Shown piece by piece: positions 19,720-30,688 of a stretch of DNA of 64,000 nt. The notes beneath the pieces were generated by a model. The model was not told the origin of the DNA. It did no database searches and saw nothing but the letters and a program-made list of their open reading frames with translations. The stretch is taken from the NCBI RefSeq assembly GCF_001542855.1, contig NZ_LNBY01000001.1, forward strand, positions 310,001 to 374,000, given 5' to 3'. A program made the position numbers and the translations under genes. This stretch comes from Erythrobacter sp. AP23. Lineage in GTDB: Bacteria > Pseudomonadota > Alphaproteobacteria > Sphingomonadales > Sphingomonadaceae. Each line of letters opens with the position of its first letter. The stretch's first letter is position 1.

Positions 19720-19772
19720 TGAAAAAATGGTGGACGCACTAGGGCTCGAACCTAGGACCCGCTGATTAAGAG
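19720..19772. repeat. Left attachment site: 3' fragment of tRNA-Lys
   Basis: This 53-bp segment matches 30636-30688 except at 19745 (C versus T at 30661, in the T-arm region). On the minus strand it corresponds to CCA and the 3' half of the tRNA up to the anticodon stem. It is not a functional tRNA, since the sequence diverges after 19772. Confidence 0.93.
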
Positions 19773-19893
19773 AACGAAATCAGGCTCCCTGCCTTGGCAC
19801 GCATCACCACGCGATGCGGCAGAAAACGATTGTCTTTCATGCACATAGTGGCAATAACGAGGCGTGGCCGGGAATGGCCACGCTGATCCGTGG

Positions 19894-19922
19894 ACCGTCT
19901 CGACCGTCTTAGAAACCGTCTT
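19894..19922 (+). repeat. Left arm-type repeats (integrase or Xis binding candidate)
   Basis: ACCGTCT occurs three times in direct order at 19894, 19903 and 19915. The last two form ACCGTCTTAG-AA-ACCGTCTT, which recurs at 30579-30598 with CC in place of AA. Short direct repeats near both ends of an element, just inside the core sites, are typical arm-type sites for a lambda-type integrase. They lie just upstream of the integrase start codon, so they may also autoregulate it. Confidence 0.7.
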
Positions 19923-19935
19923 GATGGAGCCACAC

Positions 19936-21324
19936 ATGACCGAGCGGATCGAACTTACCGATAGCCTTGTATCCAGCCTGCCGCCGCCCAGCGCTGGGCC
20001 ATATGTCCAGCGCGACACGCTGCCCGGCTTCTACGTCGTCGTCGGCAAGCGCGCCAAGACCTTCACCGTCCAGTGCGACGTCCGCGACGAGCTGGGCCGT
20101 CGGCGGACGAAGAAGCTCGCACTCGGTCGGCATGGCGAGCTGACCGTGAAGCAGGCGCGGGCGAGGGCGAAGGCCGAGCTGGGCGCGCTACAAGTCGCTG
20201 GGCGCTTCGAGGAGCGCCGCAAGCAGTGGACCGTCCGCGAGGCATGGGAGCATATGCGAGACTATGAGCTACCCGCGAAGGGGTCGCGCCCCCGCACCGT
20301 CGAGGGATACCAGAAGACGATCGACCGGCTGATGGGCGACTGGCGGGACGTGACGCTGCGCAAGTTCGCTGACAATCCTAGGCTGGTGGTGGAGCGGCAC
20401 CGCGCCGTCACGCGCGACAACGGCCCCTACGCCGCCAATCACTTCGGGCGCGCGTTTCGGCGGCTCTATAACTATGCGCAGGCGAAGCTCGACCCGACCC
20501 TGCCGCTGATCGCATGGGGTAAGGTCATCAGCTTCAACCGCGAGCAGCGGTCGAAGGATGGGATGGGCGAGGAGGAGCTGCGCGACTGGTTCGTTCAGCT
20601 CGGCAACCTTAGCAATGAGGTTCGGCGCGAGTTTCACCTGTTCACACTGCTGTCCGGCTCCCGCCCTGACGCTTTGAGCAAGGCACGCTGGTCGGACCTG
20701 AACGTTCGGCGGCGTGCCTTGCGCATAACTGAGCCTAAGGGCGGGCCGGATCGTGCCTTCGACATTCCACTATCTCGCCCGATGCTTGCCTGCCTTATCC
20801 GAGCGCGGAAGGCTGGGAGAAAGCTGTGCCCGCGTCAGTCGGCGACCTTCATCTTCCCGGCGAACAAGAGCCGCAGCGGCCACCTGAGCGAGTGGAAGGA
20901 GGACAGGACGGAGCTTGCGAAGTGGGGCAAGCAGCTTCGCCAGACCTATACCATCGCGGCAGAGTGGGTCGATGTATCCGAGCGCACGTTGAAGCGGCTC
21001 CTGAACCACAAGACGCAGGACGTCACGATGGGCTACGGCGACCGTGACCGTATGTGGCCCCGCCTTGTCGCTGAGCAGGAGCGGATATCGGCGCACATTA
21101 TGGCGCAGGTCCCGGTAAAGGACGAGCGCTTCGAGCTGCGCGCCGAGCGCGACGGTAATGCAACCGTCGTCCGTGCCCACGTGACTCGCTCTGAGGCGGC
21201 TGCCATCGTCGAGGATGCAGAGAACGATATTTCGTGGCCCGAGGGGCACGATGCTGTGCTGTGCGACAGTGCTGGCACTGCGTGTTGGTTCCTCGCTGAC
21301 GGCTGGGAGGCAATAGCGGCATAG
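19936..21324 (+). CDS. int: Tyrosine-family site-specific integrase
   Basis: From ATG 19936 the protein has 462 residues. It has the N-terminal DUF4102-like arm-binding region (LPGFYVVVGKRAKTFTVQCDVRDELGRRRTKKLALGRHG is part of it), a SAM-like core-binding domain (EAWEHMRDYELP...) and a catalytic domain. Catalytic residues seen are Arg in LLSGSRPDALSKARWSDL, the second Arg in KQLRQTY, His in LLNHKTQ and the nucleophile Tyr in TMGYGDRD. The first His of the usual H-x-x-R box is Lys here (K-Q-L-R). The last 70 residues form an extra domain. It is adjacent to the left att site, as expected. Confidence 0.95.
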   Translation: MTERIELTDSLVSSLPPPSAGPYVQRDTLPGFYVVVGKRAKTFTVQCDVRDELGRRRTKKLALGRHGELTVKQARARAKAELGALQVAGRFEERRKQWTVREAWEHMRDYELPAKGSRPRTVEGYQKTIDRLMGDWRDVTLRKFADNPRLVVERHRAVTRDNGPYAANHFGRAFRRLYNYAQAKLDPTLPLIAWGKVISFNREQRSKDGMGEEELRDWFVQLGNLSNEVRREFHLFTLLSGSRPDALSKARWSDLNVRRRALRITEPKGGPDRAFDIPLSRPMLACLIRARKAGRKLCPRQSATFIFPANKSRSGHLSEWKEDRTELAKWGKQLRQTYTIAAEWVDVSERTLKRLLNHKTQDVTMGYGDRDRMWPRLVAEQERISAHIMAQVPVKDERFELRAERDGNATVVRAHVTRSEAAAIVEDAENDISWPEGHDAVLCDSAGTACWFLADGWEAIAA

Positions 21325-29617: not shown

Positions 29618-30588
29618 GCAAGCGCATCAAAGGGCGAATACCGCCGTCAGGACGATACTCCCCGCTGCGCTATCCGGGCGGCAAGGGGAAGCTCGCGCGC
29701 TTCGTATCCTCACTCATCAAATCGAACGATATTTCAGATGGCCTCTACGTTGAGCCCTACGCGGGCGGCGCGGCGGTCGCCTGGGAGTTGCTGTTGACCG
29801 GCATAGTGCGACGGGTCGCCATCAACGATGTGAGCCGCCCGGTGTATGCGTTCTGGCACAGCGTGCTTAATGAGACTGATGAGTTGGCCGCCCTCATCGC
29901 GGACACCCCCGTCACTGTTGAGGATCGGGATCGCCTCAAGGCGGTGCTCGCTGCGCAGGACAACGCAAGCGACCTTGAGCTTGGTTTCGCGATGTTCTTC
30001 CTGAACCGCACGCATCGCTCCGGGATACTCAATGGCGGCGTAATTGGCGGGCGCGATCAGACCGGTAAGTGGAAGATCGACGCACGCTACAACAAGGCTG
30101 ATCTCATACAGCGAATAGAGCGCATAGCCGCCGCGCGACGACGAATTGAGTTGACCAACCTAGATGCAATCGATTTTCTCGAAACCTACAGTCCGAAGTG
30201 GCCCGCCAAGACGCTCGTATATCTCGATCCTCCATATTACGAGAAGGGCAGCCAGCTCTATTACGATTACTATTCAAATGAGGATCACGAGGCTGTATCA
30301 CAGGCGGTCCGCTCTCTAACTAACGCCCACTGGATCGTCTCCTACGATGACGTCTCCCCCATCCAAGCGATGTATAACGGCTTGCAAGCGCTCCAATATA
30401 CGATTGGCTACAGCGCGCGGAACGTTCTGCGTGGGCGGGAGGCCATGTTCTTTAGCGACAGGTTGCAGGTGCCAGATGTGGAGGGCTCTATGGTCGAATT
30501 GCATCGATCTAGCCGTGGAGGGGCGCTAATCGCGCCACCGCCTACGAAGGCCGAGCTTGCGGCGCGCAATAGTGTGTCACCGTCTTAG
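29614..30588 (+). CDS. D12-class N6-adenine DNA methyltransferase
   Basis: The 324-residue protein has LRYPGGKGKLA (residues 18-28), the AdoMet-binding EPYAGG (47-52) and the catalytic DPPY (205-208, in YLDPPYYEKG), in the order of the Dam/MboIIA group. It methylates adenine in a short DNA site not deducible here. No restriction endonuclease gene is adjacent; the partner is the ParB/Srx-fold protein. The C-terminus runs into the right-hand arm repeats, so its last codons are made of ACCGTCTT sequence. Confidence 0.9.
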   Translation: MSKRIKGRIPPSGRYSPLRYPGGKGKLARFVSSLIKSNDISDGLYVEPYAGGAAVAWELLLTGIVRRVAINDVSRPVYAFWHSVLNETDELAALIADTPVTVEDRDRLKAVLAAQDNASDLELGFAMFFLNRTHRSGILNGGVIGGRDQTGKWKIDARYNKADLIQRIERIAAARRRIELTNLDAIDFLETYSPKWPAKTLVYLDPPYYEKGSQLYYDYYSNEDHEAVSQAVRSLTNAHWIVSYDDVSPIQAMYNGLQALQYTIGYSARNVLRGREAMFFSDRLQVPDVEGSMVELHRSSRGGALIAPPPTKAELAARNSVSPS

Positions 30589-30612
30589 CCACCGTCTTTT
30601 TAAGACGGTGGC
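30579..30612 (+). repeat. Right arm-type repeats and terminator hairpin
   Basis: ACCGTCTTAG-CC-ACCGTCTT (30579-30598) repeats the left arm motif at 18 of 20 positions. A third copy is inverted at 30602, giving a perfect 11-bp stem GCCACCGTCTT-TTT-AAGACGGTGGC (30588-30612). It covers the dam stop codon. It may serve as a terminator for the cargo operon and as an integrase arm site. Confidence 0.7.
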
Positions 30613-30635
30613 TCGCTTTCGCGGCCCTAAGTAAC

Positions 30636-30688
30636 TGAAAAAATGGTGGACGCACTAGGGTTCGAACCTAGGACCCGCTGATTAAGAG
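30636..30688. repeat. Right attachment site within tRNA-Lys
   Basis: This is the partner of 19720-19772 (52 of 53 identical). It supplies the 3' part of the intact tRNA gene, so the element brought a replacement 3' end and left the old one at the far left. Confidence 0.93.

Follow-up and report, generated by a model that had tools for sequence, protein, structure and literature searches.

Several described phage satellites resemble, each in part, the element reported here, which lies in a window of 64,000 nt (the whole stretch analysed) from Erythrobacter sp. AP23 (contig NZ_LNBY01000001.1, positions 310,001-374,000, forward strand; coordinates are those of the window). In Gram-negative phage-inducible chromosomal islands (PICIs) the replication origin comes after the primase gene, and a lone capsid gene is present in 21 of the 29 reference islands (PMC10111431). 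The window element has their size (10-20 kb), integrase, AlpA regulator, primase and variable accessory genes, the downstream origin being represented only by an iteron-like array, and part of the family defined below by its large terminase subunit (TerL) carries a lone capsid gene too. PICIs use the terminase of their helper phage, some with a small subunit (TerS) of their own or a TerS-binding protein (PMC10690885); the window element encodes both subunits, and this reliance on a helper large terminase is not seen in it. It shares the possession of both subunits, the integrase and the satellite size with the capsid-forming PICIs (cf-PICIs), which encode also a major capsid protein, protease, portal and connectors (PMC10690885), whereas capsid, portal, protease and connector genes were undetected in the window element and its near relatives. 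The phage-inducible chromosomal minimalist islands (PICMIs) of Vibrionaceae are similar in their defence genes and in having no known capsid remodelling gene, but they contain no identifiable packaging gene and are located next to fis (PMC10803314), unlike the window element with its terS-terL at tRNA-Lys. In SaPIbov5, Ccm is a capsid homologue (PMC8569155); this recalls the mostly beta- and gammaproteobacterial branch of the TerL family, which has a lone capsid protein and, unlike SaPIbov5, adds its own terS-terL, the window branch having a different protein, P8, instead. Markers of P4-like satellites (sid and others) did not turn up in general Pfam and PHROG scans, which included no search aimed at them.

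Apart from cf-PICIs, the satellites that have been described depend for packaging on proteins encoded by phages (PMC12409344). A satellite that has terS-terL but lacks a capsid gene was found neither in the excerpts of PMC11389934, PMC13376191 and PMC12324425 nor, sphingomonad cases included, in the titles and opening lines of abstracts of the open-licence literature, prior notice being possible in papers on satellite detection, virion-encapsidated integrative mobilizable elements (VEIMEs) or tycheposons. The comparisons described below place the window element in a satellite lineage that is real, recurs, is under selection and encodes a packaging motor of its own.

The element occupies 10.9 kb in the gene for tRNA-Lys(CTT) and is bounded by an attachment (att) repeat that is the longest among the direct repeats listed for the region (Table 1). 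All of its genes lie on the forward strand except that for a DUF5818 protein, which sits between P8 and the PD-Lambda-5 pair, opposite in direction to its neighbours. In the ten window-element proteins scanned against Pfam and PHROG no portal, capsid or tail family was matched, the only head-and-packaging matches being the two terminase subunits. P3 matched no family in Pfam, PHROG, PADLOC or TIGR profile scans. An earlier note, made from the sequence alone, had described att repeats in this tRNA, an integrase, an AlpA-like regulator, a primase-VapE protein, a repeat array, a terS-like gene and an intact terL; all of these are borne out by the repeat pair, the family matches and the array counts, and what it had left as unknown and cargo genes can now be named as P8, the DUF5818 gene and the PD-Lambda-5 pair.

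Table 1. Features of the window element and its integration site
Feature	Position	Strand	Basis or remark
att copy, integrase end	19709-19772		64-nt direct repeat, 92% identical to 30625-30688
Tyrosine integrase, 462 aa	19936-21324	+	Pfam Arm-DNA-bind_3 E 4e-7; phrog_1 E 4e-23
AlpA/excisionase-like helix-turn-helix regulator	21591-21860	+	HTH_17 E 5e-10; phrog_66; TIGR01764 below its cut-off
P3, small conserved protein	21853-22182	+	47-52% identical in G369, G076, G191, same position
Primase with VapE-like helicase domain	22170-24353	+	PF05272 E 3e-70; phrog_256 E 1e-87
Iteron-like array, GGGGGAAC and complement	24371-24620		seven copies, primase-terS spacer
terS, terminase small subunit	24819-25319	+	phrog_309 E 2e-8; 14-nt overlap with terL
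terL, intact terminase large subunit	25306-26694	+	Terminase_6N E 6e-11; phrog_2 E 9e-27
P8, 271 aa, helical, found in TerL family	26707-27522	+	profile; AlphaFold2
DUF5818 gene	27540-27848	-	PF19135 E 3e-21
Cargo: PD-Lambda-5 protein A	28211-29617	+	PADLOC PDLC04015 E 8e-189
Cargo: PD-Lambda-5 protein B, D12-class adenine methyltransferase	29614-30588	+	PADLOC PDLC04018 E 4.5e-117; PF02086
att copy inside tRNA-Lys	30625-30688		direct repeat; covers 3' half of tRNA-Lys(CTT)
tRNA-Lys (CTT), integration target	30644-30719	-	ARAGORN

The uninserted site is present in a relative. In a genome of the same genus without a TerL match (G043), a stretch of 3.7 kb (L190) contains a single 49-nt att copy, continuous with the right flank of the window and matched by both element ends at 96-98%; no other element sequence matched this stretch, nor did the left flank of the window. 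The gene of the left flank (18219-19439), found in only 4 of 60 genus genomes, yielded no empty site.

The window TerL has a single match, itself, in the host genome. Host included, it was found in 2 of the 60 genus genomes and, at E 1e-60, in 10 of 397 genomes of the bacterial family, with terL open in all ten. The order int-alpA-primase-terS-terL is repeated in other genomes at different tRNAs. The sites occupied in relatives are tRNA-Lys(CTT) (G369), tRNA-Arg (G076), tRNA-Gly (G325), tRNA-Asn (G395), tRNA-Thr (G146) and tRNA-Lys(TTT) (G030), in each case with exact att repeats of 24-54 nt (in G146, 28 nt and a second block of 19 nt). No exact att repeat was found at the locus of G191, and one of 47 nt is present in L060, the same place as G210.

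A wider TerL scan of one genome per species gave at least 78 loci, grouped as 42 family loci and 36 control loci, the latter with TerL at most 29% identical. Among the matches listed, the 42 family loci (TerL 33-90% identical) come from Alpha-, Beta- and Gammaproteobacteria and one member of the Acidobacteriaceae. An integrase was matched upstream on the same strand in 31 of them, terS in 39, primase in 17 and AlpA in 8; among the 36 listed controls there were no matches to integrase, AlpA, terS or P8 and one to primase, and 76 viral controls gave 0 for integrase, 3 for primase and 1 for terS. Two further family loci have tRNA att pairs (L057, 46 nt; L062, 48 nt). In eight of the nine remaining loci (L040, L042, L052, L054, L055, L061, L065, L067) fewer than 4 kb of contig precede terL, and in L070 the integrase match is weak and on the opposite strand only. 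Integrase, primase and terS occur together in 16 of the 42 listed loci, all alphaproteobacterial by record title but L064 and L069; with L050, these are the beta- and gammaproteobacterial loci with a primase match. With exact tRNA-type att repeats of 24 nt or more as limits, 22 distinct bounded elements, the window element included, measure 6.9-14.4 kb (median 11.1 kb). The family as used below comprises 52 loci, in which G369, G191, G210 and G253, identical with L029 (confirmed by sequence comparison), L031, L060 and L054 (these three paired by the length of the contig and the position on it), are each counted once; L003, a viral contig ending within P8, lies outside this set. L030 comes from Sphingobium sufflavum HL-25 and L031 from Croceicoccus estronivorus MH-B5. 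Two different family satellites, L034 and L036, share one genome (G452, Sphingobium sp. 66-54), L036 at a tRNA-Gly-like site and L034 near a tRNA-Arg gene, where no att repeat was found. In L063, L065 and L066 (Rhodobacterales) the terS and terL matches are about 0.5-1.2 kb apart, compared with adjacent or overlapping genes in most other loci.

A closer inspection of TerL showed that the residues of the Walker A and Walker B motifs, the NPG residues and the acidic residues of the nuclease are invariant in all 11 aligned copies. The ratio of nonsynonymous to synonymous changes (dN/dS, Nei-Gojobori counts, values for pairs below 50% identity meaning little) is 0.06-0.18 in eight pairs, with 0.11 for the window against L029 and 0.12 against L030, and terL is under purifying selection. 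It is the gene with the lowest ratio in five of the seven pairs having several genes, the exceptions being L044/L045, where terS has no amino-acid change, and L050/L068, where integrase (0.05) and terS (0.04) are slightly below TerL. In L044/L045, TerL is 99% and TerS 100% identical, while the integrases are 31% identical. Homologues 69-75% identical to the window integrase head the elements in L029, L030 and L003.

In a TerL tree of 51 family rows and 12 control phage rows (a quick search without bootstrap that gave a long-branch warning), the family is split from the 12 control phage TerLs with an SH-aLRT of 100. Among the best 30 of 519 matching phage records (50,697 searched), the best-ranked is 28.7% identical to the window TerL, and the best-ranked match of L050 TerL is 32% identical. 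Viral contigs come nearer, L107-L110 at 36-37% and L003 at 84%. In the tree a full phage-like head set is found only in L109/L110 (TerL identical over the columns used), which stand beside L107; in L110 (1877-6434) the genes after terL are those for a portal, for head morphogenesis and for a major head protein of a different type, and this contig may represent a donor phage, kin of a helper or a capsid-forming satellite. The assignment of L062 to the phages, made on account of its head gene, was rejected: 48-nt att repeats at tRNA-Val bound an element of 10.4 kb, and the row of L062 in the TerL tree is that of a satellite.

The search for shell genes was extended to the relatives. PHROG scans of 30 further open reading frames (ORFs) from eight of them (G369, G076, G191, G325, G395, G030, G146, G210) gave no head, portal or tail families, the matches being to methyltransferases, replication genes, ATPase-like proteins and families of unknown function. 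For 78 downstream ORFs of 29 family loci, no head or portal family was among the best 25 of 62 matched families, whereas the same scan of 70 downstream ORFs from 30 control loci, in which portal and head genes come after terL, matched the portal family phrog_156 in 23 and each of several major-head families in as many as 11. A set of phmmer structural queries (the kinds of portal and head protein present in the control loci, with proteins of L110 and L062), which matched 64 of 76 held-out viral controls, hit 13 family loci, the best match always being the major capsid protein of the L062 type. Of the 22 bounded elements, 19, the window element included, have no portal or head match, and L043, L044 and L062 have the capsid protein; the end of G325 beyond position 22,000 of its joined stretch, which holds the integrase, lay outside this search. 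With L062 counted, 14 of the 52 family loci, mostly beta- and gammaproteobacterial, carry a lone SPP1-type major capsid protein. Thus the claim of the earlier note that there is no capsid gene is true of the window branch and several others, but not of the whole TerL family. The recurrence that it had proposed as a test is seen in the near relatives: the capsid-free set is present again at tRNA-Lys(CTT) and, in other genera, at tRNA-Arg, -Gly and -Thr, and neither of the outcomes that it had named as contrary, relatives all carrying portal, capsid or tail genes and loss of terL integrity, was encountered, terL being open in all ten family genomes and under purifying selection.

Of the 14 capsid genes, 11 immediately precede terS, that of L064 lies about 1.9 kb before it, and those of L052 and L062 come 0.7 kb after terL. 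That of L050 (8540-9535) matches phrog_247 (E 6e-98) and the PDB entries 4an5 (E 4e-56) and 6r3a (E 1e-55), which we take to be the coat protein of phage SPP1, and is preceded by a scaffolding-like protein. The closest phage capsid proteins are 43% identical. No portal was matched near the capsid-bearing loci with the structural queries, and SPP1_portal gave 0 matches in 17 genomes, capsid-bearing and capsid-free hosts combined. Between L052 or L062 and the other 12 loci the capsid proteins share 48-67% identity, as much as distant members of the 12 share among themselves (49-67%), but the TerLs share only 48-55%, compared with 58-99% within the 12; from these identities, the capsid gene seems to travel independently of terL and to be exchanged between lineages. 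The capsid-bearing satellite L050 also encodes (3860-4144) a small protein that resembles the C-terminal half of a tail assembly protein of phages and may affect helper tails.

P8 alternates with this capsid protein. Its profile matched 18 of the 52 family loci, and 20 after one extension round (six loci added), so that P8 is present in 20 loci, the capsid protein in 14, both in none and neither in 18. The exclusion could come partly from shared descent, the counts being uncorrected for kinship. P8 follows terL in the window branch, L057, L067 and L108, lies between terS and terL in G146 and G395, and in L041 and L069 is found just upstream of terS, the place of the capsid protein in the other branch; the same exchange is seen between the TerL-tree sisters L057 (P8 after terL) and L062/L052 (capsid protein after terL). 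The AlphaFold2 model (pLDDT 82) is mostly helix. No viral or PDB fold was matched at E <= 0.001, no PDB sequence better than E 0.81, no phage record at E 0.01, and no viral contig in the P8 scan. The possibility that P8 is a disguised capsid protein is not favoured, given the nearly all-helical model and the lack of a fold, PDB-sequence or phage-record match.

The array between primase and terS is probably the replication origin. The octamer GGGGGAAC occurs there in 7 copies, counting either strand, whereas no octamer exceeded 3 copies in 200 single-base shuffles. Seven of 10 relatives have repeated octamers in this spacer that exceed all 50 single-base shuffles, with 6-7 copies in L031, L032, L034, L036 and L046 and, in L029 and L033, only 4 where the shuffles reach no more than 3; in L030, L035 and L060 they are not above the shuffles. 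A CCGAC/GTCGG core is common to six of the seven repeat-bearing relatives, L034 and the window using words of their own.

Between the tRNA and P8 (or terL) lies a slot whose cargo differs among relatives: PD-Lambda-5 in the window, type II restriction-modification (R-M) pairs in G369 and G191, an AriA/PtuA-like ATPase in G076, an OLD/GajA-like protein in G325 and, in G030, a DNA methyltransferase accompanied by an NsnA-like protein. The 386-aa protein in G395 has no PADLOC or PHROG match, and the cargo of G146 and G210 no match in the PHROG scan, the only one run on it. Recognisable defence-type genes are thus present in six of the nine slots examined.

In our judgement the element is quite probably a PICI-like satellite that brings its own terminase and packages itself into helper procapsids. 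In this scenario the integrase would insert it into the 3' end of tRNA-Lys and the AlpA-type regulator would control excision; on arrival or induction of a helper phage the element would excise and replicate from its own iteron origin by means of its own primase-helicase. Its TerS would recognise element DNA, and its TerL, a complete ATPase-nuclease motor, would dock on the portal of the helper procapsid and fill it with element DNA, either as one copy in small heads or as a concatemer in full-size heads. P8, to judge from its position and its alternation with the capsid protein, would probably have the borrowed procapsid as its target, influencing how large it becomes or how well the motor fits the portal. 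When not being transferred, the element would pay its way with its defence module, which is swappable and in this case is PD-Lambda-5.

Several points weigh against this reading. A motor and its portal usually co-evolve, so that work on a foreign portal is demanding for TerL, and the sequence analysis revealed no helper phage, no pac site, no excised circle and no packaged DNA. The absence of capsid genes, as judged from profile and sequence searches of limited family coverage, is a qualified one, the structural queries having missed 12 of the 76 held-out viral controls, and the 14 capsid-bearing loci belong to the same family, as does by its TerL clade the viral contig L110 with its portal and head genes. 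One of 46 family TerL stretches checked contains a stop (L056). With the queries used, AlpA and primase were matched in only 8 and 17 of the 42 listed loci, and the full core is therefore not shown in the beta- and gammaproteobacterial ones.

Among the alternatives, the most probable, though still unlikely, is that a cf-PICI-like, capsid-bearing lineage lost its capsid gene at a later stage; the window branch would then be derived and perhaps no longer able to package itself. The SPP1-type protein near terS-terL in 14 loci speaks for such an ancestry, but no portal was matched beside it, it looks exchanged between lineages (L052, L062), and terL is under selection where the capsid gene is absent. 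A slimmer chance is given to a terminase kept for something other than self-packaging, for example defence by interference with helper packaging. Many satellites block helper packaging, and the cargo consists of defence genes; against this, both subunits and the catalytic residues are kept alongside a primase and an iteron-like array, and poisoning would presumably need less.

That a prophage decayed, losing its structural genes and keeping its terminase by chance, is hardly credible, even though terS, terL and integrase are genes of prophage type and a portal gene exists elsewhere in the host genome (G000:C14:8504-9463, the sole PF04860 match there). This last gene may belong to a gene transfer agent or a prophage. 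Decay is improbable because the same genes are found together in further sphingomonad genera and in other Alphaproteobacteria, and elements with int-terS-terL and a related TerL in Beta- and Gammaproteobacteria. The same capsid-free set with intact terL in several genera, the low dN/dS of terL, the narrow size range of the 22 bounded elements and the mere 29-32% or so of identity to the best-ranked phage TerLs all argue against it, and the portal, head and tail genes of a tailed prophage, whole or broken, were found neither in the window element nor in the eight relatives scanned.

Beyond the satellite with a motor of its own, a wider proposal is offered tentatively and with less than even confidence. 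The packaging motor may be the inherited core of a widespread lineage of satellites, terS-terL travelling between integrase and replication modules and borrowed shells being adapted by one of two interchangeable proteins encoded beside it: P8, a helical adaptor or size factor, mostly in Alphaproteobacteria, or a lone capsid protein of SPP1 type, for the most part in Beta- and Gammaproteobacteria. P8 would then be a new class of procapsid-hijacking protein. A lineage with the motor only makes the specificity of the contact between terminase and portal, and the evolution of a motor for foreign portals, amenable to testing. It would also add a vehicle, findable by sequence search, that spreads defence systems (PD-Lambda-5, R-M, OLD/GajA-like) through the proteobacteria.

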